Assembly: GCF_036924645.1 (NCBI RefSeq)
Contig: NZ_JAZHRX010000001.1
Span: 434,001 to 498,000, forward strand
Direction: 5' to 3'
Length of the DNA stretch: 64,000 nt
Origin: Bradyrhizobium sp. AZCC 2176
GTDB lineage: Bacteria > Pseudomonadota > Alphaproteobacteria > Rhizobiales > Xanthobacteraceae
Position numbers and translations under genes: made by a program. The stretch's first letter is position 1. Every line of letters starts with the position of its first letter. Under the pieces are notes generated by a model that had not been told where the DNA came from, made no database searches, and saw only the letters and a program-made list of their open reading frames with translations. Positions 7,772 to 44,193 of the stretch are shown here, piece after piece.

Positions 7772-8749
7772 TTACTTCACCGCCTGGATGCGTTCCCAGT
7801 CGGCCTTGCGGTAGTCGAAGCTCTCGAAGCTGACGGTCTTGAGGACGGTGTCGCGGAACTCAGACTTGTTGACCTCGGTCACCGTCAGGCCCTTCTGCTT
7901 GAAGAAATCGACCAGCTTGGCTTCGTTGGTCTTGATCTCGGCGGTCGCCTTCGCCGCCGCTTCCTGGGCGACGTCGGTGAAGATCTTGCGGTCTTCCTCG
8001 GACAACTTTTTCCAGAGCGCGCCGGAAACCACGGTGTTGAGATGATCGACAATGTGGCCTGTCAGCACGATGTGCTTCTGCACTTCGTAGAATTTCTTGG
8101 CCTCGATGGTCGTGAGCGGATTTTCCTGGGCTTCAACGGTGCCGTTCTGCAGGGCGAGATAGACCTCGGCAAACGCGATCGGCGCAGTGTTGGCGCCGCA
8201 GGCGCGCGGCATCGCGAGATAGGCCGGCACATCAGGCACGCGAATCTTGAGGCCCTTCATGTCGGCGCAGGTCTTGATTGGCTTGTTCGACGAGGTGTGA
8301 CGCACGCCGTAGTAAGTCACCGCCACGATGCGATGGCCGGTCTTGTCCTCGTAGCCCTTGGTAAGCTCCTTGAAGACGTCGCTCTTGGTATAGGCAAGGA
8401 GATGGTCTGCATCGCGGAAAGTGTAGGGATAATAGGTCACGCCGATCGGCGGAAAGCTCTTGGCCGCAAAGCTCGAGCCGGAAATGATCATGTCGACCGA
8501 GCCCAGCGAAAGGCCCTGGTTGATATCGGTTTCCTTGCCGAGCTGCGAGGCCGGATAGACGTCGATCTGGTAACGGCCATTGGTGCGCTTGTTGATTTCG
8601 CCCGCGGCCCAGACCGAAGCGGTGTGGAACGGCTCCGAGGTTTCGTAAACGTGGGCCCATTTCAGCTTGGTCTGCGCCATGCCCGATGTGGTCGCGGCCA
8701 ACAGCGCCGCAGCAGACGCCGCGAATGCAATCGTCAATTTCTTCAACAC
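7772..8749 (-). CDS. dctP: TRAP transporter substrate-binding protein (DctP family)
   Basis: A 325-residue periplasmic protein with a signal peptide (residues 1-25, ending TTSGMAQ). Family features are Arg150 in YGVRH, Arg170 in KGLKIRVPD (the arginine that usually clamps the substrate carboxylate) and the helix EVYLALQNGTVEAQENP. It delivers a carboxylated solute to DctQM. Given UxuA, UxuB and a C5 dehydrogenase next door, the ligand is probably a sugar acid such as L-gulonate, D-mannonate or a hexuronate; the sequence alone does not fix it. Confidence 0.92.
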   Translation of the reverse strand: MLKKLTIAFAASAAALLAATTSGMAQTKLKWAHVYETSEPFHTASVWAAGEINKRTNGRYQIDVYPASQLGKETDINQGLSLGSVDMIISGSSFAAKSFPPIGVTYYPYTFRDADHLLAYTKSDVFKELTKGYEDKTGHRIVAVTYYGVRHTSSNKPIKTCADMKGLKIRVPDVPAYLAMPRACGANTAPIAFAEVYLALQNGTVEAQENPLTTIEAKKFYEVQKHIVLTGHIVDHLNTVVSGALWKKLSEEDRKIFTDVAQEAAAKATAEIKTNEAKLVDFFKQKGLTVTEVNKSEFRDTVLKTVSFESFDYRKADWERIQAVK

Positions 8750-8842
8750 GTGAATTCCTCCCTTGCTACAATTTGCTTTTGTTACTCAACCGGCCCGGCA
8801 TTTCGCCGAACCGTTCGAATTCCTGGTCGTTTTCTTGGTCGT

Positions 8843-9580
8843 TCAGCCACTCCTCGCACGGACGCGGGACGCGGACGAAGCTTCGGTTCCGAAATTTTGC
8901 GCAAAGCGGGCCTGCGAACGCGCCAGGTGCTCGCGCATCGTCACGCGCGCCGCGTCCGGATCATGTGCGGCAACGGCATCGCGGATCGCCCGGTGCTCGG
9001 CCAGCGCCGCGCTCCACGATTGCGGATTCTCGAAATAGTGCGCGAGCTTGGCGAAGTAGGGATTGAGCCGCTGGTCGAACAACTCGCCGACCACGCGGAC
9101 CAGCACGGCGTTGTCGAGACAGCCGGCCACAGCTACATGAAACGCGCGGTCATGGATCATTGAGGCTTCGCCGGGATGCTGCACCGTGGCCATCGCTTCC
9201 AGCGACGCGTCGATGCGCGCGATGTCCTCAGGTGTCGCCACCCGCGCGGCCTGTTCTGCAATGGCGCCCTCGAGGAATTCGCGCGCGCGCAGCAGTTCGA
9301 ACGGGCCTTCGATCTCGGTCGCCGCCGGCAAGGGCTGCGCGAGCGCCGCCGGTTCACTGACATAAATTCCGGAGCCGACGCGAATCCGGACCCGGCCCTC
9401 GACTTCCAGGGCGATCAGCGCCTCGCGCACCGTCGGCCGCGACACCTTCAACTGTTCGGCAAGATCGCGCTCGGTCGGAAGACGGCTGCCCACGGCATAT
9501 TCGCCGCTGTCGATCAAGGCACGGAGTTGATCGGCAACCTGGCGATAAAGGCGTCGCGCTTCCACGGCTTCGAGCGGCAC
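8843..9580 (-). CDS. GntR-family regulator, FadR/UxuR-like subgroup
   Basis: A 245-residue regulator with an N-terminal winged helix (residues ~11-75: LPTERDLAEQLKVSRPTVRE) and a C-terminal FCD helical ligand domain (~95-220). The subgroup includes UxuR and ExuR. It is divergent from uxuB and upstream of the TRAP/uxuA genes; a palindrome ATTGG-CCTTA-CCAAT sits in the divergent promoter region. It is probably the cluster's repressor, responding to a pathway sugar acid. Confidence 0.9.
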   Translation of the reverse strand: MPLEAVEARRLYRQVADQLRALIDSGEYAVGSRLPTERDLAEQLKVSRPTVREALIALEVEGRVRIRVGSGIYVSEPAALAQPLPAATEIEGPFELLRAREFLEGAIAEQAARVATPEDIARIDASLEAMATVQHPGEASMIHDRAFHVAVAGCLDNAVLVRVVGELFDQRLNPYFAKLAHYFENPQSWSAALAEHRAIRDAVAAHDPDAARVTMREHLARSQARFAQNFGTEASSASRVRARSG

Positions 9581-33932: not shown

Positions 33933-35504
33933 CTACGCCGAGGCCGAGTGTAGGCTGGCGGTCGGCCGGTCCGGCGTGGGCCGCCAATCGCGCCACTTCC
34001 GGACCGACGGGGCGCTCGCCGGCTCGATCGCGGCCAACAGCGCGGCGTTGACTTCCGCCATCCGCCCGAGCTTGGCCATGCACCTGGCAGCCGCGACGAA
34101 TCCGTCCGCCTGATCCGGTTGCAGCCGCATGTATTCGAGGTGCTGGCGCAATGCTTCCTCGTGTTGACCGAGGCTCTCGCAAACCTGGCCCAGACACTGC
34201 CACGCCTTGGCGGCGTCGGGCCGAACCGTCGTCAGGATCCGGAACAGCCGCTTGGCCGCGGCGAAGTCACTCTTCGCCGCCAGCAACTGGCCGAGCCGGT
34301 GCAACGTGTCGGCGTGCTTCGGATCGACCTCCAAAATGCGGCGGTAGCCGATCTCCGCATCGGCGGTCCGTCCCTTGCGGTGAAGTTCGGTCGCCTGTTG
34401 CAGCAGATCAGGGATGCACCTGGCATCGATCCGGCCGCCCAGATTCCTGCCGTTCCTGGTTTCCAGAACGATGGAGTGGATCCTGCGCTCCTTGCAACCG
34501 AACGAATATTTGTACGGCTCGTTGCCGCGCAGGAAATCGTACTCGACAAAACCGCGCTCGATGGCGTCGCGAATGCTGTAGGCATGCAGGATCATGCCCG
34601 CGGGCGGTCCCTCGAACGTCTCGTCGCGTCCGGTCATGTAAAACGAGAAAGTCCGCTTGCGCGGCTCCACCAGCGTCGCCAGCGCCGCAACCGGCCGGTC
34701 GCCATGCCAGAAAGTCGGCAGGTACAGCAGACCGGACTGGAAACTGCGCGTCAGCATGGTGCCGTTGGAGCGGATCAGGCTGTCCATCCGGTCAGCTTTA
34801 CGGGCACGCCATTTCGTATCCCAGAATCCCAGCAGGGTCTTGAGGTCCCGGTCGAACGTCTCTGATGTGGCGACGGTTATGCGATATTCACTGGGCGCTT
34901 CGACCTGCTTCAGCAGCCGCCGGATCTTCTGCCGCGTATTGGTGCTGAGCGCGTCGAGATAGCTGTTCCAGTCGTTCGGCAGCGCGGCGTAGGGGCAGAG
35001 GCTGTTGTCGATCCCGTCGACCTTGATAACCTTGTCGACTGTGGTCGAGGTGAAACTTGCCTTCGGGAAGCAGGCGGTCAGCAGCCGCCAGCGCCGCTCG
35101 GATATTCTGACATTGTCGAGATGGAGACGCGCCCAGTTCATCTGCCTGACGGTGCGGGCAAAGGCGGGAATGACCTTGTGCTCCGCCTCTGGCCTGCAGA
35201 CGATGCCGGTGTAGTCGGCGCCGAAATTGCCCGCCATCCTGACGTCGCCGTAAACCTCGGATTTCTCGATCGTGGTCTGCAGCCGCAACGGAAGGAATGC
35301 GACGTACGGCAGGTCGGCGGCGTCCCGCTCTTTCGCCGCCAGGATGAACCAGGGTCCGGGGATGCAGGACAGCCAGCCGTTGAGCCATTTCCATGACAGG
35401 AAAATCTGCGCCTCGTCGTCCGCATCGTAGACGGCGTTCCAATTGTCCTCGAGCTTGGCCAGCGACGGCAAGGTTTCGATGATGTCGATATGCACGGCGG
35501 ACAC
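33933..35504 (-). CDS. GNAT (BioF2/CelD-type) acyltransferase fused to TPR repeats
   Basis: A 523-residue protein. Residues ~1-360 form a double GNAT-like fold of the CelD/BioF2 class (FLSWKWLNGWLSC; NTRQKIRRLLKQVEA; PPAGMILHAYSIRDAIERGF). Residues ~380-490 form about three TPR repeats (AEIGYRRILEVDPKHADTLH; AAKRLFRILTTVRPDAAKAW; ALRQHLEYMRLQPDQADGFV). It follows the secretion membrane-fusion gene by 21 bases on the same strand, so it belongs to that operon and may acylate a secreted protein or polysaccharide. It starts with GTG near an AGGAAAG site. Confidence 0.82.
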   Translation of the reverse strand: MSAVHIDIIETLPSLAKLEDNWNAVYDADDEAQIFLSWKWLNGWLSCIPGPWFILAAKERDAADLPYVAFLPLRLQTTIEKSEVYGDVRMAGNFGADYTGIVCRPEAEHKVIPAFARTVRQMNWARLHLDNVRISERRWRLLTACFPKASFTSTTVDKVIKVDGIDNSLCPYAALPNDWNSYLDALSTNTRQKIRRLLKQVEAPSEYRITVATSETFDRDLKTLLGFWDTKWRARKADRMDSLIRSNGTMLTRSFQSGLLYLPTFWHGDRPVAALATLVEPRKRTFSFYMTGRDETFEGPPAGMILHAYSIRDAIERGFVEYDFLRGNEPYKYSFGCKERRIHSIVLETRNGRNLGGRIDARCIPDLLQQATELHRKGRTADAEIGYRRILEVDPKHADTLHRLGQLLAAKSDFAAAKRLFRILTTVRPDAAKAWQCLGQVCESLGQHEEALRQHLEYMRLQPDQADGFVAAARCMAKLGRMAEVNAALLAAIEPASAPSVRKWRDWRPTPDRPTASLHSASA

Positions 35505-35525
35505 CTTTCCTCGTGTTGACTGCTG

Positions 35526-36890
35526 CTAGCGTTCGCGGAATGCGCGCATCATGCTGTCGTGGATCGGCCTGACGATGTACTGGAAGAACGTCCGTTCCGC
35601 CGTCTTGATATAGACCTCGGCCGGCATGCCGGGGGTGGGACTGAAGCCCGGAATATTCCTGCTCTCCTCGCTGTTGAGCTTGACGCGCACGATATAGATG
35701 TCGGTCGGCCCGACCTGCTGGGACTTCTTCTCGTCCGCTAGCGTGTCGGCCGACAGGTAAATGACGTCGCCGGTGACCATCGGCGTGATGCGCTGGTTCA
35801 GCGCCGTCAGCCGCACCATTGCCGTCTGTCCCTGTTTGACGCTGTCAATGTCCTGCGGCCGCAATCGCGCCTCGATGATCAGCTCGTCCTTTAGCGGCAG
35901 AAGCTCCATGATGTTCTTGCCGGCCTCGACCACGCCGCCGCGCGTATGATAGCGGAGCTTCACCACCACGCCGCTCACCGGCGCGGTGATGCGGACGCGA
36001 TCGAGGATGCCCTTGGCGCTCAGCATCCGCTCGCGGACGTCAGCCAGTTCGCCGCGGATTTCGTGCATCTGCTCGACCGCGGTCTTGATCGCGGTCTTGC
36101 GCACGCCATTGATCTGCTCGAGCGCGCGGGCGATACGTTCCTTGGCATCGCCGATGTCGCCCATGATACGGCCGACCTCGCCTTCCAGATTGGCCTTCGA
36201 CCGCTGCAGCACCATCAGTTCCGGCTTGCGCACCAGCCCTTGCTGCACCAGCTTGTCCTTGGTCACGATTTCCTCGTCGAGCAGGACGATCTGACGGTGG
36301 GCGGCGTCGAGTTGCACCCGGGATCCCCGGATTCGCTCCTCCAGCGCGTTGATGCTCTCCTGGATGCTCTTGACGTCGCTGTTGAGGTTGTTGCGGCGCG
36401 CCGTGAACGTCATCTGCTGGCTGTCCACGATTTCCTTCACCTCGGGCGAGCTGGCCAGCCATTGGAGGATCTCGGGCGGCAGGGTGATCTCTTTGTCCTC
36501 CCTCATCTCGGCCTGCAGCCTCGCGTCGATGGCCGTCAGGCGGATGCGCCGCAGGAACAGCCGCTGCAGCTCCGCGCGCGCTGCGGTGTCGTCAAGCTCG
36601 AGCAGCGCTTGCCCGGCTTCCACCGTGTCGCCTTCGCGGACGTAGATTTCGCGGATCATTCCGCCTTCGAGATGCTGGATGATCTTGTTCTGTCCGGTAA
36701 CCACGAACACACCGGAGGCGACCACGGCGCCGGCGATCGGCGCCATGTTGCCCCAGACACCGAACCCCATCGTTACCACCGCCATGATCAGCGCACCGGC
36801 AACGGTTGGCAGTTTGGTCGATCGCGGCAGCGTGTCGTACCAGGTACCTTCTGATTCCGCGGAGCGGTCCGCAATCTTCCTGTTGGCCAT
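35526..36890 (-). CDS. Type I secretion membrane fusion protein (HlyD/PrtE family)
   Basis: A 454-residue periplasmic adaptor with one N-terminal membrane helix (~residues 28-52: [20 protein letters not shown]), lipoyl half-motifs ([20 protein letters not shown] and [20 protein letters not shown]) around a long coiled-coil hairpin (~110-290). It bridges the PrtD-like ABC protein to an outer-membrane TolC-type channel, which is not encoded here. It lies 42 bases after the ABC gene. This is a protein-secretion type HlyD, unlike the drug-efflux one at 55916. Confidence 0.92.
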
Positions 36891-36932
36891 CGCGTAACCT
36901 CGTTGCTGTCAAACCCCGGCCGACGCCCTCGA

Positions 36933-39140
36933 TCAATTCAACGAAGGCGGATCGCCCGGCCCGGTCGGGATGTTGTTCGGCTTGCGTCCCGTGATCATCG
37001 GAATGATCTCGTCGCGGCTGCCGAAAGCCTGCACCGCGCCCTGATGCAGGATCATGATCTTGTCGACGCTCATCAGCAGCGCCGCGCGCTGGGTGATCGT
37101 CACCACCGTGATCTGCTTTTCCTTGGCGCGAACCAGCGCCTTGGCCAGCGCCCGCTCGCCATTGGCGTCCAGATTCGAATTCGGCTCGTCGAGCACGATC
37201 AGGCGCGGGTTGCCGTAGAACGCGCGCGCCAGCCCGATGCGCTGCCGCTGGCCGCCCGACAGCGGACTGCCGTCCATGCCGACGATGGTCTCGTAGCCCT
37301 GGGCGAAGCTCGAGATCATCTCATGCACATCGGCGGTCTCGGCGGCGTCGAACACATCCTCGTCGCGCGCATCGTCACGCATCCGGCCGATGTTGGCCTT
37401 GATCGATGCCGGGAACAATTGCACGTCCTGCGGCAGGTAGCCGACGCTCTCGCCGAACTGGCGTGGATCCCAGTTGCGCAGATCCATCATGTCGAGCCTG
37501 ACGCTGCCGGCGGTCGGGATGATGGATCCGACCAGCATGCGCGCCAGCATGGTTTTCCCGGTGCCGGAATCTCCCACGATGGCAAGCGATTCCCCGGGTT
37601 TCAGTTGAAAACTGATTCCGTTCAGGATCACCTTCTTGTTCGGCGGCGGCACGTAGAGAATGCGCTCGACGTTGAGGTAGCCGGCGGGACGGGGCAGACG
37701 GAGCCGCTCCAGGTTGAGCGGTGAATTCAGCAGCAGCGCCCTGATGCGGGCGTAGGCCGAACGCGCCTGCACGAAGCTGCGCCAGCCTTCGATGGTGCCC
37801 TCCAGCGGCGCCAATGCGCGGCTCGCCACGATCGAGGCGGCGATGACCATACCGCTGGTGATATGGGCTTCCAGCGCCAGCCATGCGCCCCAGCCCAGGA
37901 TGGCGATCTGGGTGCACAGCCGCAGGAACTTCGACAACCCCGTCATCAGGATGTTGAGATCCTGTCCGATCACCTGCGCCTTCAGCGACTCCACGGTTTC
38001 GCGGCCCCATACCTGGACGCCTTCCGGAATCATGCCCATCGCATTGATGACCTGGGCATTGCGGGCCATCGATTCCGCCTGCAGGTTTGCCCTGGCGCCA
38101 TAATTGTTGGCCTGGTTGAACGGGACTGCAGTGACCCGCTGGTTCAGCAGTGCCACGATGACCAGCCCGACGCCCGATCCCAGCACGATGAATCCGAGAT
38201 GCGGATGGATCAAAAACACCACGGCAAAATAGACCGGCGCGACCGGCGTATCGAACATCGTCAGCAATACCGGACCGGTAATGAACGCGCGGAGGTGCTG
38301 CAGGTCGGCCAGCGTCTGGAATTCGCGGCTCGATCCGCCCTGCGCGGCCTTGGCGGCAGCGCTGAGGACGGGTCCGCCCAGTCGGGCCTCGGTTTCGACC
38401 GCAACCCGCATCAGGATGATGCGGCGCATCATGTCCATCAGCACATGCGCCCCGATCGCGATGATCACGATGATGGTCAGCATCACCAGCGTATCCGTGC
38501 TGCGGCTGGTCAGCACGCGATCGGACATGTTGAACAGGTAGATCGGAATGGCGAGTACCAGCAGGTTGACCGCCACCGAGAACATCCCCACGGTCACCAG
38601 GTTGCGGCGGGCATTCGCAAGACCGGCACCGAGCACGTCCCTGAATTCATTGTCGCTGGAACGCTTATGCAGCGGCGGCGAGTTACCACCACCGCCACCT
38701 CCACCACCGCCGCGGCCGCCTGAAGAGCCGCCACCGTCCTTGCGGCCTCCCGTGCGCAACGGGGGAGCCGGGACCGCCTGCTCGATCACGACGGTGGATC
38801 CCGGCGGCGGGGTTTTGGCTTCCGTTCTTGCTTCCGTTTTGGCTTCAGTCTTCGTTTCAGTCTTTGTTTCAGTCTTCGCTTCGGTCTTGGCTTCCGTTTT
38901 GACCTCAGTCCTGGCCGCCTCCGGCCGGGATGGCCCGACCGATGGCAACTCCGCGGTCCTGGCTTCCGCCAGACGATCCTTCTCATCGGCAAATTTGACG
39001 TGCGGATCTTCGGTGCGCGAATGCGGCGGATCAAACCACGGGCGGAGTGGAATTATCTTGGCTGTGCTCGCCGTTGCTTCGTCATGCTGACTTAGGCGCC
39101 CACTCGCGGCGCCGCCTGGACGATCATCCCAGCCCCACAT
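36933..39140 (-). CDS. Type I secretion ABC permease/ATPase (PrtD family) with long disordered N-terminus
   Basis: A 735-residue exporter. Residues ~1-165 are a low-complexity extension: (E/T)AKTE-type repeats, a Gly-rich tract of 9 Gly, then NSPPLHKR. Six membrane helices follow, and the ATPase has Walker A GDSGTGKT (523-530), LSGGQ (627-631) and Walker B LIVLDEP (647-653). The switch-loop His is replaced by Gln (TITQR). Typical PrtD proteins have ~570-580 residues without this extension. The ATG at 39140 has AGGAG 9 bases upstream; a TTG at 39158 is possible. Two repetitive proteins encoded just upstream are the likely cargo. Confidence 0.92.
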   Translation of the reverse strand: MWGWDDRPGGAASGRLSQHDEATASTAKIIPLRPWFDPPHSRTEDPHVKFADEKDRLAEARTAELPSVGPSRPEAARTEVKTEAKTEAKTETKTETKTEAKTEARTEAKTPPPGSTVVIEQAVPAPPLRTGGRKDGGGSSGGRGGGGGGGGGNSPPLHKRSSDNEFRDVLGAGLANARRNLVTVGMFSVAVNLLVLAIPIYLFNMSDRVLTSRSTDTLVMLTIIVIIAIGAHVLMDMMRRIILMRVAVETEARLGGPVLSAAAKAAQGGSSREFQTLADLQHLRAFITGPVLLTMFDTPVAPVYFAVVFLIHPHLGFIVLGSGVGLVIVALLNQRVTAVPFNQANNYGARANLQAESMARNAQVINAMGMIPEGVQVWGRETVESLKAQVIGQDLNILMTGLSKFLRLCTQIAILGWGAWLALEAHITSGMVIAASIVASRALAPLEGTIEGWRSFVQARSAYARIRALLLNSPLNLERLRLPRPAGYLNVERILYVPPPNKKVILNGISFQLKPGESLAIVGDSGTGKTMLARMLVGSIIPTAGSVRLDMMDLRNWDPRQFGESVGYLPQDVQLFPASIKANIGRMRDDARDEDVFDAAETADVHEMISSFAQGYETIVGMDGSPLSGGQRQRIGLARAFYGNPRLIVLDEPNSNLDANGERALAKALVRAKEKQITVVTITQRAALLMSVDKIMILHQGAVQAFGSRDEIIPMITGRKPNNIPTGPGDPPSLN
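38685..38735. repeat. Gly-codon repeat in the secretion ATPase gene
   Basis: CCACCGCC-type repeats (minus strand GGCGGTGG) encode the poly-Gly linker between the disordered N-terminus and the membrane domain. Prone to length change. Confidence 0.8.
38816..38909. repeat. 12-bp-period repeat encoding TEAK/TETK units
   Basis: About eight degenerate 12-base units (minus strand ACTGAAGCCAAA and variants) encode T-E-[AVT]-K repeats in the secretion ATPase's N-terminal extension. Confidence 0.85.
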
Positions 39141-39188
39141 TTGAAAACTCTCCTGCAACTATAATGAACAAAACACCTGCTCTTGCCG

Positions 39189-41120
39189 CTAATGCAGCAC
39201 GCTTGCCATCGGGTCTGACTGCACCGAATTGGCAATCACTGCCGGCGGCGGGCTCGCCGTCTCCTGAGGGTGGTCGTCGACGAAAGCAATGAGTTCGGTC
39301 ACCAGGGTGTTGGTATCGGCGTTGACGGCATTGGACTCCGCCGGCACCAGATCGGCCTGCACCAGAATGGAATCGGTGTAGATCTCGCCCCTGACGTAGG
39401 TCGCATCAGGGTTGACGTCGACGATCGCAGCATCGTTGGTAAGTTCGTTGCCCCCGGTGGTGACCGACTGCGTCACCGCGCCGTCGGGATCAAGCGCCAT
39501 CAGGTCGGCCAGGGGCTGGTTCTGAAGCTGATACATCACGTCGACGTCGGAGGTGATGTTGGTCTGCCAGATCGCATTGATGTCATAATGGTCGCCGGTG
39601 ATGTAGAGGACCTTCAGGGGACCGCCATGGCCGATGAGGGCGCCGGCCAGTTCGGGATCGAGTGACGTCAAGCCGGCGGCCAGCAGGCTTTCGATCAGCT
39701 CGAGGTTTGCGGGCAGTTCGTCAAAGGTATCGCCGCCATAGTTTGCAACCGCGGCTTCGTTCAACAGGCTGTTGTCACCCGAATTCGCGGACTGAGACGG
39801 ATCGGCGCCGTCGGCCGCCATCTTGATCTTGTCGTTGTCCAGCAAGATGTTGTTTTGAAAGATGACGTTCAGGCCGTGATAGCCGCCCTTGATGATGATC
39901 AGGTCGTATTCAATGCTGCCGTCAAGGATCTGAGCCAGATTGCCCTGGGTATTGTAGCCGCCGACGAGGTTGTAGTGGGAACTGCTGCTGACCTGCGTTG
40001 CCACGTCGTTGTCGGAAAGATAATTGACCTGAGCCACCGCGTGAACGCTGTAGAAGTCGCCGTCGACCACATCGACGGTCCAGTTCGTGCCAGCAAATTG
40101 GGCCTGGAAGCCGGCGTAGATGCTGGGGTTCTGGAGAAAATCCGCGATGTTGGTCGCGACGTTCTGATCGCTGGTTGATGTTGACTCGTGGTCCCCGCCC
40201 GATACGCGGACCCGGTCATCGTCCATAATGGTATTGGTCTGGAAGATGGCATTGGTCTTGAAGTAGTCTCCCATCACCACCATGGCGCGGGCGGACTCGC
40301 CGAGATCGACGAGCAGCGCTGCGTTGATGCTGAAGTTGCCGCCCAACGAGGCCCACTGGCCGATCCCGTCTCCGGTGTCCGGCAATTCCGGCGGCTCGGC
40401 CGGCGGCGTCGTTTCAGACGGCCGCTCCTGCAGCTCGCCGTTGACATAGTAGCCAGGGGTTACCGAGTGCGCATCCGGCTCGCCGCCGCCGTCGGCCCAG
40501 GCCGCATCGTGGGCGACCAGGAAATCTGTAGTGCCGGCATCGGTCTGCGGCATCTGCCAGTCGACGGGAATCGCCGCGTTCGCATCTGCCGCCAACTCCT
40601 CGATAGTGGCCATCGCATCGCTGTGGAGGCGCTCGATCAGAGGCTCAACCACGGCCAGGGCATTCGCCGGCAGATTGACGTCGTCATCAAGCATGAAGTT
40701 GTATTGATGAACCGTCAGTTGGGTCTCAGGGCCACCATCCTCGTATTTCACCTTGACGTGGTGGTCGGCGCTGCCTCCGCCGCCGCCGCCCGGCGGTTTC
40801 GGCAGCGGGATGCTCGGCGCCGACGAACGCGGAAAGAAATCGAAATCGTCGTCCTGTGGACCATGGAGCAGCTTCAGCGGGCGTCCGCGAATGAAATGGA
40901 TCGGATCGTCCGGCAGCAGCTCCGGCACCGGGCCTGCCGCGGTTTCCATATCGTCAGGCACGAAGCGATAATCGTAATTCGGCCGCAGCGTTGTGTAGTC
41001 GCCCGACGGACGAGGCGCGAGACTCTCATCGTACTCCATGCGGTCGCGGGCGATGTCATGGAAGATCTGCAAATATCCTGCGAAGTGGGAAATGATTTCG
41101 ACGAAGCTCGCCGACGCCAT
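39189..41120 (-). CDS. Unrecognised repeat protein, candidate type I secretion substrate
   Basis: A 643-residue acidic protein with no recognised domain and no signal peptide. A Gly/Pro hinge (108-116) divides it. From residue 280 a ~70-residue pattern recurs: hydrophobic strand, then G-[DG]-x-[YF]-x3-[AV]-[IV]-x-Q-x-N-x3-D-x-D. Copies are at 284-304 (GDYFKTNAIFQTNTIMDDDR), 354-373, 412-432, 509-528 and a weaker one at 578-590. Between them are Asn/Ser/Gly-rich turns. A beta-solenoid or adhesin-like secreted protein is plausible. GGGAGG precedes the ATG. It lies 48 bases upstream of the ABC exporter gene on the same strand. Confidence 0.75.
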   Translation of the reverse strand: MASASFVEIISHFAGYLQIFHDIARDRMEYDESLAPRPSGDYTTLRPNYDYRFVPDDMETAAGPVPELLPDDPIHFIRGRPLKLLHGPQDDDFDFFPRSSAPSIPLPKPPGGGGGGSADHHVKVKYEDGGPETQLTVHQYNFMLDDDVNLPANALAVVEPLIERLHSDAMATIEELAADANAAIPVDWQMPQTDAGTTDFLVAHDAAWADGGGEPDAHSVTPGYYVNGELQERPSETTPPAEPPELPDTGDGIGQWASLGGNFSINAALLVDLGESARAMVVMGDYFKTNAIFQTNTIMDDDRVRVSGGDHESTSTSDQNVATNIADFLQNPSIYAGFQAQFAGTNWTVDVVDGDFYSVHAVAQVNYLSDNDVATQVSSSSHYNLVGGYNTQGNLAQILDGSIEYDLIIIKGGYHGLNVIFQNNILLDNDKIKMAADGADPSQSANSGDNSLLNEAAVANYGGDTFDELPANLELIESLLAAGLTSLDPELAGALIGHGGPLKVLYITGDHYDINAIWQTNITSDVDVMYQLQNQPLADLMALDPDGAVTQSVTTGGNELTNDAAIVDVNPDATYVRGEIYTDSILVQADLVPAESNAVNADTNTLVTELIAFVDDHPQETASPPPAVIANSVQSDPMASVLH

Positions 41121-41253
41121 GGGAACCTCCCGTCGCCGAAGGCCGTGAAGGCCGCGGTACGGCCCTCAGTCCTTGTCGGCAACTGCAGCGACTGAAATGA
41201 AATGACCGGGAAAAAAATCCGCGCGGCTGCCGCCGCGCGGATCGAACGCAAAG

Positions 41254-42075
41254 CTAGCCTATGTCGTTATCGGTCAGACCGTCACCGGCAGCCTGAATGG
41301 TGATGCTGTTGAACTGGATGTTCGCACCCTGCGTGATGTTCTGGTCGAATGCAGACTGGTTGAGGACTGCATCGGCGCTGGAAGACACATCGGCGCGCGT
41401 ACCAATATCTCCGGCGTCGATCCTGGACGTCCCGCCCTCGATCTTGGCATCCATGTCGAAGCTGGCGCCCGGCTCACACCACGATCCACCGTTGCCGCCA
41501 TGGTAGGTGGCAGACGAGCTGTTGGTGTCTTGATCGACCAGGTTGTTGACCTGATCAATATTGAACTGGTTGCCGTCGTTCATCTTCTGGTCGACCACGT
41601 CGGGCATGACCACAGACCCGGCCGTGGTGAAGTTGTAGAGATCGATGACCGGGCTGCTCAGCCCGCTTGTGTCCACATCGACATCCACGTCGACATCAAC
41701 GTCTACCTTGCTCTCGACGGTGTTTTCGATCTTGTTTTCGATGTTGTTGTCGATCTTGTTGTCGACCTTGTTATCGACATCGTTGTCGAGATCGTTGTCT
41801 ACCTTGTTGTCGAGCTTGTTGTCGACGGTATTCTCGTTCTTGTTCTCGTTCTCATTCTTGTTGTCATTGTCGTTGTCGTTGTCATTCTCGTTCTCGCTCT
41901 TGGAGTCCAGCGACTGAACGGCGAACTGCAATTGGCCCTGACCCTGGCCCTGGCCCTGACCTTGGCCCTGCAACTGAGCCTGGAGATTGGCTTGCGCCTG
42001 CAACTGGTCTTGCTTCTGGTCCTGGTCTTGATCCTGGTCGTTCTTGGGATCCCACTTCGGCTTTGGCTTACTCAT
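41254..42075 (-). CDS. Highly repetitive Asp/Asn/Gln-rich protein, candidate type I secretion substrate
   Basis: A 273-residue protein made of blocks: QD/DQ and QA repeats (12-34), QG repeats (36-48), EN/DN repeats (61-82), a tetrapeptide repeat [VLI]-[DE]-N-[KDNT] with ~10 units (83-122), DV repeats (124-135), then a less repetitive Asn/Gln/Asp-rich C-terminus with one Cys (200) and SFDMDAKIEGGTSRIDAGDI. No signal peptide. The ATG at 42075 has CAGGAG 8 bases upstream. Acidic, Gly/Asn/Asp-rich, signal-less proteins beside a type I exporter are usually its cargo. I do not recognise a family. Confidence 0.78.
   Translation of the reverse strand: MSKPKPKWDPKNDQDQDQDQKQDQLQAQANLQAQLQGQGQGQGQGQGQLQFAVQSLDSKSENENDNDNDNDNKNENENKNENTVDNKLDNKVDNDLDNDVDNKVDNKIDNNIENKIENTVESKVDVDVDVDVDVDTSGLSSPVIDLYNFTTAGSVVMPDVVDQKMNDGNQFNIDQVNNLVDQDTNSSSATYHGGNGGSWCEPGASFDMDAKIEGGTSRIDAGDIGTRADVSSSADAVLNQSAFDQNITQGANIQFNSITIQAAGDGLTDNDIG
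41701..41833. repeat. 12-bp-period coding repeat (V-D-N-K units)
   Basis: About eleven degenerate 12-base units, mostly TTGTTGTCGA(C/T)C on the plus strand, encode the tetrapeptide [VLI]-[DE]-N-[KDN]. Variation is concentrated at third positions and in the hydrophobic codon, so the repeat looks selected for protein sequence. Confidence 0.9.
41834..41905. repeat. 6-bp-period coding repeat (E-N / D-N units)
   Basis: Tandem TTCTCG/TTGTCG hexamers (plus strand) encode EN and DN dipeptides in the repetitive protein. Confidence 0.88.
41935..42050. repeat. 6-bp-period coding repeats (G-Q and D-Q units)
   Basis: CTGGCC/CTGACC hexamers around 41936-41970 encode the QG tract; CTGGTC/TTGATC hexamers near 42005-42040 encode the DQ/QD tract of the same protein. 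Confidence 0.85.
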
Positions 42076-42375
42076 GACGTGCTCCTGAGGTTGGAGCATC
42101 GCGGGCGGAACGAGATCGCTGATCTTCTAAGTCTGCGGTCTTCGAAGCGCGGCGGTGCTCTTTACGTCGGTTCTTCCGACTGCCGGCACTTCGCCTTATT
42201 GCGGATGCCGGCGTGGTCAGAATGCCGCCATACGTTCGCCAACAACATGCACGCATTAGATGCATCGCTGTATCTTGCGATATCAACCATCGAAACGGTT
42301 GCTGCTTCGACAGAGTCAGTTTGTGAATGAACAGAAGCGGGACGAGGCAGGATTGCTCGTCATGCGCGGCCTGGT
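42076..42375. other. Non-coding gap upstream of the repetitive-protein gene
   Basis: Exactly 300 bases with no credible gene on either strand. It must hold the promoter of the secretion operon (minus strand), but I see no single convincing -35/-10 pair or operator. Confidence 0.5.
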
Positions 42376-42966
42376 TCAAGCCGCATCAACGGACACGCTT
42401 TGTGGCTGCAGATTGCCGCAGACATGCGCTTCAAGGCGCGGCAGCAGATCCCATATCTCCCGATTGATCTTCGTCATTTCATGGGTTGTCCGCACCATCT
42501 CCTGCAGACGGCCTTCGTCCAGCGCCTTTATCTCTCCGAACCTCAGGCTCGACCTTGTTTCCATCAATCGCATCGACTGGGTGTGGGTGATGGCGCCTGT
42601 GGAATCGAAGATGAACATGCAATGGTTCAGTTCATTGCGAACCTTGGTGGACTCGGAAAACCGTTCGATAAGGGCGGTCAGATTTTTCGACAGAGCCTTG
42701 TCGATAACCCTGATCTTCGCCAGTCGCTGTATCAGATCGAGTCTCGCGCGGGTGGTGTTCAGCGTCGCGAACACGACTGCGGCGGAAGCCTCGTCGGTGC
42801 GCAGAAGAATCATCAGCACGTAGATGAAAAGGCTTTCGTTGTTCGACCAACTGCAGATCAGGTTCCCCATCAGAGCGAGAACGAATGTGCGGCGATCCGC
42901 CGAGGCGGGAGCCGCGGCGGCGAGCATGTCGAAGTCCGGCTTTGGGGGTAACTTGCTGGCAAACAT
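42376..42966 (-). CDS. Hypothetical protein with an Rx4H (HEPN-like) motif
   Basis: A 196-residue, mainly helical protein. Residues ~25-55 are hydrophobic (FVLALMGNLICSWSNNESLF, then IYVLMILLRTD) and the middle carries TKVRNELNHCMFIFD, with the R-N-x3-H spacing of HEPN-type RNases. I have no family name; similar proteins appear in Bradyrhizobium genomes as hypothetical. The ATG at 42966 is preferred to a TTG at 42996. It lies upstream of the repetitive-protein gene on the same strand, with 300 bases between, so co-transcription is uncertain. Confidence 0.65.
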   Translation of the reverse strand: MFASKLPPKPDFDMLAAAAPASADRRTFVLALMGNLICSWSNNESLFIYVLMILLRTDEASAAVVFATLNTTRARLDLIQRLAKIRVIDKALSKNLTALIERFSESTKVRNELNHCMFIFDSTGAITHTQSMRLMETRSSLRFGEIKALDEGRLQEMVRTTHEMTKINREIWDLLPRLEAHVCGNLQPQSVSVDAA

Positions 42967-43317
42967 TGCAATGTGTCCGCAGGTACAGGCCGACAATATT
43001 TATTTTGATCGTACCGGCTTCGTCGCAAAAGACGTACATATCGAAAGATATACTAGCGAAGGTCGGGGCGCTTTTCTGCAACCACCACAAGAAAATGTCG
43101 CTTTCTTGCTGCTATCTTGCTGCGGTTCCCTTGTTCCCGCCGACTTCTTGTCACACTCACGTTTCTTTACATGCCATTTGAAGCTCCTTGGCATTCCGTA
43201 TGAACAAGAGTAAACTTTTATGCACAATTAAGATGCTAAGTGATCTATTTCACAACGACCCAGAAGAGTCGGAAGCAATCTATCGATAGTCATACGACGT
43301 AATGTAAGGGGCGCGTT
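42967..43317. other. AT-rich divergent intergenic region
   Basis: About 350 bases between the Rx4H gene and the LuxR-type gene, clearly richer in A+T than the rest of the window. It holds a perfect palindrome CTATCGATAG (43280-43289) 29 bases before the luxR start. No gene is seen. Confidence 0.55.
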
Positions 43318-44193
43318 ATGTCAGTCCCATTTAAGAAGACGGTTTTCCTTGTCGACGCGATGGCCTTCAGACGAGCTCGCGCAGAGAGCTTCCTGAATCC
43401 GTGGGCCCGGAACGAAAGCGTCGAACTGATTTCGCTCGATCCCGACGAAGCCCATACAAAGCTCGTCGAGCGCGCTGTATGCGACATGCTGATTTACAGT
43501 GTCGGCGCTCCATCTCCCCACGAGGTGTTCACCGAGATACAGGTGTTACATACCCTTCGCCGGGACGCGGCGCTCGCCATCGTCTCCGACGATGAAAATC
43601 CCGCGACCGTTCTCGCCGCGATCCGTTGCGGGGCCCAAGGCTATTTCAGCAATTCCATGGCACCCGAGCTTGCGTTGCAGGCCCTTTCGTTCGTGCTTCA
43701 CGGCGGCACTTATTTTCCGCCAACCGCCATCCTGGCCAGCCAGGCCTTCAGCGCGCCGGCGCCCATCGAATTCAGACAACCCGACCTTTCCCCGGAGCTG
43801 CCGCTTCCGAGACCTGAACAACAGACGCAAGCGCCGCCCCTCGGACCGGAGGACGGCCCTTACGAGCAGCAAGGCCTCCTTTTCGACGACAAGATGCCTA
43901 GCCTGCAGCGCGACCATGGCTTCAACGGCGCGCGGAACGCACCCGAGTTTACCGAGCGGCAGTACGCCGTTCTCGTTTGTCTCTGCCAAGGCGACCCCAA
44001 CAAGATAATCGGTCGCAAGCTCGGCATGACCGAAACGACCGTGAAAGTCCATGTCCGCGAAATCATGCGCAAGCTGGGCGTAAGCAACCGGACCCAGGTC
44101 GCGATCGCCGCGGCGCACGTCTGCCTGGACAATCCCATTGCACTGGTTCCCGCGGATTCACCCATGGCGATCAAGCCGTCGATATCTCATTAG
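43318..44193 (+). CDS. LuxR-type regulator with degenerate receiver domain
   Basis: A 291-residue regulator. The N-terminal ~120 residues have a CheY-like fold (KKTVFLVDAMAFRRARAESF; RCGAQGYFSNSM), but the phospho-acceptor strand reads CDMLIYSVGAPSP without the expected Asp and the usual Lys near GYxxK is absent. A Pro/Gln/Glu-rich linker (~135-200) leads to a C-terminal LuxR HTH (FTERQYAVLVCLCQGDPNKI; TETTVKVHVREIMRKLGVSN). It should act without phosphorylation. AAGGGG precedes the ATG. It is divergent from the secretion-linked genes and is their likely regulator. Confidence 0.88.
   Translation: MSVPFKKTVFLVDAMAFRRARAESFLNPWARNESVELISLDPDEAHTKLVERAVCDMLIYSVGAPSPHEVFTEIQVLHTLRRDAALAIVSDDENPATVLAAIRCGAQGYFSNSMAPELALQALSFVLHGGTYFPPTAILASQAFSAPAPIEFRQPDLSPELPLPRPEQQTQAPPLGPEDGPYEQQGLLFDDKMPSLQRDHGFNGARNAPEFTERQYAVLVCLCQGDPNKIIGRKLGMTETTVKVHVREIMRKLGVSNRTQVAIAAAHVCLDNPIALVPADSPMAIKPSISH

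Follow-up and report, generated by a model that had tools for sequence, protein, structure and literature searches.

The DNA considered here, referred to as the window, is a stretch of 64,000 nucleotides from Bradyrhizobium sp. AZCC 2176 (contig NZ_JAZHRX010000001.1, positions 434,001 to 498,000; the source genome is a single contig of 7.15 Mb). It holds a candidate type I secretion cassette in which two acidic repeat proteins, here called A and B, are encoded upstream of an exporter and its adaptor on the same strand, with the genes, strands and sizes in the open reading frame (ORF) list agreeing with the original prediction for this locus. In the direction of transcription on the minus strand the order is X, B, A, PrtD, HlyD and GNAT-TPR, the gaps calculated from coordinates being 276, 133, 30, 42 and 21 base pairs (bp), and a LuxR-type gene lies divergently. 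Gene X and an RNA hairpin between B and A, neither of which appeared in the original prediction, also form part of the cassette.

Results

Protein A

Protein A (643 residues; 39189 to 41120, minus strand), the proposed main cargo, is as devoid of recognised domains as had been claimed: the window protein has no Pfam or NCBIfam match at an expectation value (E) of 1 or lower, no family is common to more than two of 56 aligned A homologues (best E 0.0075, in one), and a profile of A found one irrelevant chain (E 0.71) among solved structures. The protein is conserved along its full length in the 56 homologues. Its repeat region, as delimited by invariant columns and by motif counts compared with shuffles, covers approximately residues 139–596 (39333 to 40706, minus strand). 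The five units of about 70 residues described earlier do repeat beyond chance, but their spacing is irregular (58–155 residues), and each unit contains two motifs rather than one: motif I, Q-x-N-x-[LI]-x-D-x-D, and motif II, G-x-N-x3-N-x-A-x-[IV]. Q-x5-D-x-D occurs five times in the window protein (residues 139, 294, 364, 422 and 519), compared with a mean of 0.29 and a maximum of 3 in 5000 shuffles, and N-x3-N-x-[AS]-x-[IVLF] also occurs five times (residues 262, 320, 390, 450 and 558; shuffle mean 0.09, maximum 2). Glutamines Q139, Q294, Q364, Q422, Q519 and Q588 are invariant in the 56 homologues; because Q588 is invariant alongside the other five, we count six copies of motif I, the last of them partial, rather than five. 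By our reading, the Q, N, L, D and D of motif I are spaced two apart and would alternate as in a beta strand.

The net negative charge of A has a median of 72.5 among the 56 homologues, no membrane segment was seen, and the N-terminus is not signal-peptide-like in a crude hydrophobicity scan (not a trained predictor). At the other end, 48 of the 56 proteins carry D-x-[MLFI]-x2-[VIMTA]-[LVMIT]-x, a pattern written after inspection of the ends and found in 31 of 11,200 shuffled ends; this conserved C-terminal end fits a type I signal. The earlier claim of a non-RTX cargo class held for both proteins of the window, in which there are no GGxGxD nonapeptides, and among the homologues the RTX pattern was matched one or more times, at chance level, in 4 of 56 A and in none of 30 B.

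The exporter and its clade

The ABC exporter downstream of A (36933 to 39158, minus strand) scores 689 bits against TIGR01842 (cut-off 510), and the HlyD-type periplasmic adaptor that adjoins it (35526 to 36890, minus strand) scores 378 bits against TIGR01843 (cut-off 209). TolC-type proteins above the TIGR01844 cut-off are encoded at two places in the genome, both unlinked to the cassette. The source genome has eight PrtD proteins above the TIGR01842 cut-off, and in a tree of 41 tips the A-linked exporters (32 tips, made up of 31 picked from loci and a second copy of the Rhizobium johnstonii one) are monophyletic with a support of 1.0 and stand apart from the seven own-genome paralogues, from PrsD and from TobD. 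They also tend to carry a low-complexity N-terminal extension, with a median of 199 residues when start codons are picked mechanically (range 7–879, n = 86; 175 in the window), compared with 11–54 residues in the seven paralogues. The part of the window coding for this extension contains a 12-bp tandem repeat (38815–38915, 8.4 copies) that codes for K-T-E-A.

The five next-nearest exporters outside this clade (L189–L193) have no A-like gene upstream. Long repetitive non-RTX proteins are encoded directly upstream of four of them (L189, 7672–11541, minus strand; L190, 7821–11810, minus strand; L191, 7969–10855, minus strand; L192, 8071–10131, plus strand); these are unrelated to A by profiles, have repeats such as VVSTVGDTVGNVVGTVTDTV and TLTDDVGGTIAPVEAAAQPVLATVSD, and are possibly further non-RTX cargo classes. 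A second repetitive gene precedes the first in L189, L191 and L192. Among the seven PrtD paralogues of the source genome, two have an RTX-bearing ORF within a 10-kb stretch around them.

Linkage and distribution

Homologues of the locus were collected by a profile scan of one-genome-per-species contigs reached through two peptide patterns; the resulting set of 77 named loci, which is incomplete, spans Bradyrhizobium, Afipia, Nitrobacter, Microvirga, Methyloceanibacter, Rhizobium, Shinella, Ciceribacter, Phyllobacterium, Devosia, Stappia, Hongsoonwoonella and two Rhodobacterales (Sulfitobacter and Palleronia), among others. By hidden Markov model, 70 of the 77 have PrtD as the next gene after A, in the same orientation, and the other seven contigs end 2–590 bp past A. 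HlyD is present in 69, the eight misses having at most 2368 bp past A; X is present in 70, all seven misses being cut by a contig end on one side; and B lies upstream of A in 74. Of the three loci lacking B, L052 is on a contig that starts at A, in L057 A is preceded by a long frame that is rich in D and G and resembles B, and the third is L092. A, PrtD, HlyD and X were found together in 14 of 14 loci of a separate set, whose genomes partly overlap the 77. Among 20 further stretches A is present in 15, three of them very divergent, and in all 15 PrtD and HlyD are adjacent. The condition set beforehand as refuting the original prediction was that homologues be mostly unlinked to type I exporters, and the loci did not bear it out (70 of 77 and 15 of 15 A loci have the exporter adjacent). 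These loci share common ancestry and are not independent trials.

Among 397 genomes of the order, 43 matched an A profile: 32 are strong matches (best E no higher than 6e-91; 17 genera), three are divergent forms (G178, G358 and G336) and eight are weak. A profile of the A-linked exporters found 40 genomes at E 1e-205 or lower, 32 of them with at least 972 bits and eight with 690–786 bits, and the former, compared by hand, are the same 32 genomes that have strong A. X matched 36 genomes, namely all 32 with strong A and four others: it is strong in G363 and G422 (the copy in G422 being split over two frames) and weak in G409 and G392, and the stretches read from the X-without-A genomes hold no A, B or adaptor. 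A was present in 8 of 398 genomes of a phylum sample, all of one class, and in 31 of 151 genomes of one family (that of G094); one of the eight, from another order, has A, B, X, PrtD, HlyD and the LuxR-type gene together (L170). The eight weak genomes (E 6e-5 to 7e-4) were rejected as carriers of A; of the loci taken from five of these genomes (L146–L150), the one read, L146, has no exporter alongside, and its match is presumably glutamyl-tRNA synthetase. Five contigs named "Rhizobiales bacterium isolate AFS" (L058, L070, L084, L086 and L093) end 237–590 bp past A, perhaps because the repeats coding for the PrtD N-terminus interfered with assembly.

Correspondence to ToaDE

For Rhizobium leguminosarum 3841, the excerpted text of PMC2275737 lists three exporter pairs, toaDE (RL0072/RL0071), tobDE (RL0623/RL0622) and prsDE (RL3658/RL3657). 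In the genome of Rhizobium johnstonii (leguminosarum) 3841, we found three PrtD proteins above the TIGR01842 cut-off, at 0.092, 0.671 and 3.854 Mb, the first of which is the exporter of our locus L068. The three positions match RL0072, RL0623 and RL3658, and the exporter of L068 is therefore ToaD; the gene order of the locus, with the adaptor at the lower coordinate followed by the exporter and then by A, also fits toaDE. Around this exporter lie A, B, X, the LuxR-type gene and the GNAT-TPR gene, whereas the 2008 paper, as excerpted, named the exporter only, did not recognise its neighbours as cargo and reported no gene for a known type I substrate within 10 kb of toaDE or tobDE (PMC2275737). 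In its excerpt, a 2024 review repeats the toaDE names only (PMC10925705), and a literature search with supplements outside its range gave, among the matches listed, no other paper on toaDE, RL0072, RL0073 or RL0074.

PrsDE, which exports Rap, Ply and NodO, resembles ToaDE in being a rhizobial PrtD-type exporter without a linked TolC gene. It differs in that PrsD falls outside the A-linked clade and in that ToaDE travels with one pair of proteins; PrsDE is reported in the accessible part of PMC2275737 to export at least 13 dissimilar proteins encoded across the genome.

Protein B

Protein B (41254 to 42099, minus strand) has 281 residues from the first start codon and 273 if the second ATG (42075) is used, and its only family matches are below cut-off and confined to its D/N/Q-rich low-complexity part. 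It had been described as consisting almost wholly of di- and tetrapeptide repeats, which is true of approximately the first 145 residues but not of the remainder, a conserved core in which F171, Q175, D181, D183, F243, G250, A251, N252 and N256 are invariant among 30 aligned B proteins. The repeats are D/N-rich throughout and specific to clades (DQDQ, QGQG and DNK in Bradyrhizobium, TDTD in Rhizobium, DNSND in Devosia). The second half contains one Q-x5-D-x-D and one GAN-x3-N, resembling motifs I and II of A, and the motif II profile of A scores 20.0 and 13.0 bits on two of the 30 B proteins and at most 7.2 bits, inside the shuffle range (maximum 8.6), on the other 28; a repeat unit common to A and B is at most suggested.

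Within the window, B carries tandem arrays of 6, 12 and 18 bp (41672–42039), and variation of repeat length by slippage is likely in these arrays as in the PrtD extension. In two loci, B reaches approximately 1,600 residues, six times the window copy (L151, 3191–8023, plus strand; L152, 3203–7906, plus strand).

A conserved hairpin between B and A

In a terminator-like scan of the window, a 12-bp stem followed by a T run begins 10 bases past the B stop codon (41216 to 41243, minus strand). All 70 B-A gaps compared contain a perfect stem (9 bp or longer, 6 or more GC pairs) starting 8–35 nucleotides (nt) past the B stop, where 50 rounds of dinucleotide shuffles gave a mean of 1.58 and a maximum of 5; the gaps are those of 69 named loci and the window, the remaining 8 of the 77 having been excluded because B or a plausible gap was undefined. 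When the same test was applied up to 80 nt past the stop codon of each gene, a stem followed B in 69 of 69 cases, A in 0 of 76, PrtD in 0 of 69, HlyD in 4 of 69, GNAT-TPR in 5 of 46, X in 4 of 70 and the LuxR-type gene in 4 of 71. Folding energy has a z below −2 in 63 of the 70 gaps. In an alignment of 18 gaps, pairing in the helix reaches 94.4% and 5 of its 12 pairs are changed on both sides, a result equalled by 1 of 500 shuffles, and slid partners of the helix are 31–55% paired; the stem persists though its sequence varies between clades. A hairpin also follows B in 13 of 14 further loci, stands upstream of A in five of the eight excluded loci and follows the ORF upstream of A in a divergent locus, L143, described below. 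Two Rhodobacterales loci (L060 and L064) have no stem upstream of the A start used, itself an uncertain start, and Rfam gave no family match within 41000–43400.

A plain terminator was considered and rejected, a stem with a T run being present in only 27 of the 70 gaps (shuffle mean 5.1, maximum 8). Because the T run is missing from many Rhizobium gaps, a stabiliser and a terminator are both possible. Intercistronic hairpins separate the cargo gene from the exporter genes in hly and also occur in puf; by analogy, the hairpin described here should leave the B message in excess of the message for A and the exporter.

A divergent locus and the curlin repeat

In L143, the ORF before A (8601–9404, minus strand) occupies the position of B and encodes a four-unit repeat protein whose units alternate motif I-like and motif II-like stretches. 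The motif II profile derived from A has four matches on this protein (42.7 bits; shuffle maximum 18.5, with 867 shuffles reported), and the whole-A profile scores 17.5 bits (shuffle maximum 7.3). A protein search yielded 19 relatives of it, and two homologues that are 50% identical (P0145 and P0146) pass the Curlin_rpt family (PF07012) with 27.3 and 28.8 bits (cut-off 20.7) over four stretches each, while none of nine shuffled or reversed P0146 controls did so. Curlin_rpt is found at E of 1 or lower in 5 of 14 aligned members of the L143 family. Profile alignment of this family with A over four units gave an E of 2e-5 (probability 77), and with B a P of 0.0018 (probability 15); no solved structure is a sequence relative of the family profile or of P0146. 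PF07012 hits were correct in 354 of 354 cases in the excerpt of PMC3521004, and our literature search returned no paper joining the curlin repeat with type I secretion. A curli-like form is best regarded as a lead that comes through one divergent branch, and the amyloid-like nature guessed at in the original prediction gains indirect support because curlin repeats occur in these distant relatives.

Partner genes

X (42376 to 42996, minus strand) is a 206-residue protein of unknown family in which R109-N110-x3-H114 is invariant in 28 of 28 aligned sequences, a motif that we take to resemble that of HEPN proteins; the X profile has no sequence relative among solved structures (PDB). Its gene is downstream on the same strand in 31 named loci, upstream on the same strand in 20 and upstream on the opposite strand in 19. 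Such an RN-x3-H motif occurs in HEPN RNases of toxin systems, and together with the retention of X while it shifts among these three positions it would fit an antibacterial toxin system in which one of A and B acts as effector while X confers immunity or is part of the toxin. We consider this very improbable: family searches (PADLOC not searched) found no toxin domain in A or B, A is one family conserved at full length and not a polymorphic effector, and Pfam backs HEPN (HEPN_Cthe2314) in only 1 of 28 X proteins, at E 0.068.

Of the two flanking genes previously proposed, both are present, but the LuxR-type one is on the opposite strand and GNAT-TPR is a clade-limited partner (71 and 46 of the 77 named loci, respectively). 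The LuxR/NarL-type regulator (43318 to 44193, plus strand; PF00196, E 4.8e-16) has a receiver with no aspartate at the phosphorylation place, according to our own reading of an alignment of 18 proteins, no experimental receiver among them. The GNAT protein with TPR repeats (33933 to 35504, minus strand) matches Acetyltransf_6 (PF13480, E 2.9e-21) and TPR families.

Discussion

We propose, with a probability of about 0.6, that the cassette is a dedicated type I system of the ToaDE clade whose non-RTX cargo forms an extracellular beta-rich polymer, perhaps a curli-like one. Secretion itself is an inference for both A and B. A is very probably cargo of the adjacent ToaD-ToaE exporter and B is probably a second cargo, while the odds that the product is an extracellular beta-rich polymer or matrix appear slightly better than even. 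Under this proposal, ToaDE would work with one of the unlinked TolC proteins to export A, recognising it through its conserved C-terminal end and perhaps also through the long disordered N-terminus of ToaD; the hairpin would stabilise or terminate the B message, and B would be produced in larger amounts than A and the exporter. In the extracellular space, the two proteins would form beta strands with ladders of Q, N and D and assemble into a fibre or matrix rich in beta structure, with A presumably serving as a multi-unit scaffold and B as the abundant partner. As a guess, X (HEPN-like) and the pseudo-receiver LuxR-type protein may control expression.

Several observations weigh against this proposal. 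The relatedness of A and B is weak (hhalign P 0.022, probability 2), motif I of A stays inside the shuffle range on B, and B lacks a C-terminal end like that of A. Scores on the L143 protein do not rise above those of shuffles for the motif I profile of A or for the three profiles of the B core; Curlin_rpt has no match in the 56 A, the 30 B or the L143 protein itself; P0145 and P0146 are known as proteins only; and the source genome has no PF07012 match (CsgG was not searched for). A toaD mutant is reported in the available text of PMC2275737 to be unchanged in supernatant protein bands, biofilm, motility and nodulation, and its authors weigh wrong conditions, gel resolution and a non-protein ToaDE substrate. 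These last results, and the lack of a recognisable type I end in B, would fit a reading in which A and B are not cargo but stay in the cytoplasm or at the membrane as accessory proteins, while the exporter moves, for example, a small molecule or a polysaccharide. We find this improbable, since the TIGR01842 and TIGR01843 subfamilies are by their names protein exporters, A has its conserved C-terminal end and no visible membrane segment, and the family of the protein upstream of A in L143 has members with curlin repeats, which are known from extracellular fibres.

Alternatively, ToaDE could secrete A and B as calcium-dependent adhesins or as matrix proteins that bind polysaccharide, comparable to CabA or the Rap proteins, rather than as amyloid-like polymers. 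The D-x-D that follows every motif I and the strong acidity of A fit calcium binding, and the Acetyltransf_6 protein alongside might modify a surface polymer. There is a precedent in CabA of Vibrio vulnificus, which the excerpt of PMC4584020 describes as a structural protein of the matrix that binds calcium, is secreted by a type I system and requires exopolysaccharide; the likeness to CabABC is by description only and includes a cargo gene that adjoins its own type I ABC and adaptor genes. However, no RTX or cadherin-type domain was detected, and some members of the L143 family have curlin-type repeats, so we regard this alternative as rather unlikely.

Returning to the proposed beta-rich polymer, its likeness to curli (CsgA/CsgB, PF07012) lies in the Curlin_rpt matches of the L143-protein homologues, in the alternating Q/N pattern and in the absence of RTX repeats. 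It differs in that A and B proper have no Curlin_rpt and that the neighbour here is a type I exporter, whereas curli subunits use a Sec signal and CsgG according to the excerpt of PMC3521004. A true curli-like amyloid is for these proteins a tentative suggestion, short of even odds. The fullest version, a type I-secreted curli-like functional amyloid without Csg machinery, with B as a subunit whose abundance is set by the conserved hairpin, A as multi-unit nucleator or scaffold and X as control partner, is doubtful.

Regardless of the form that the cargo takes, the orphan exporter ToaDE, without a substrate in 2008, can now be paired with a specific candidate cargo, in a strain that is genetically tractable and in which toaD has already been mutated. 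A non-RTX cargo family without a Pfam entry is defined, together with two constant parts of the cassette unmarked by annotation, the HEPN-like protein X and a covarying hairpin that predicts an excess of B. Dueholm and colleagues, in the excerpt of PMC3521004, remark that many Alphaproteobacteria have curlin subunits but not other Csg proteins. If the curlin link is true, it would bear on this remark about csg-poor Alphaproteobacteria; a type I-secreted amyloid would be one answer to how amyloid is exported in Alphaproteobacteria without most csg genes, and HEPN-like X would be an unprecedented control partner of an amyloid system. The curlin repeats in distant relatives of the proposed cargo may thus point to a poorly known class of secreted proteins that build a matrix or fibres.

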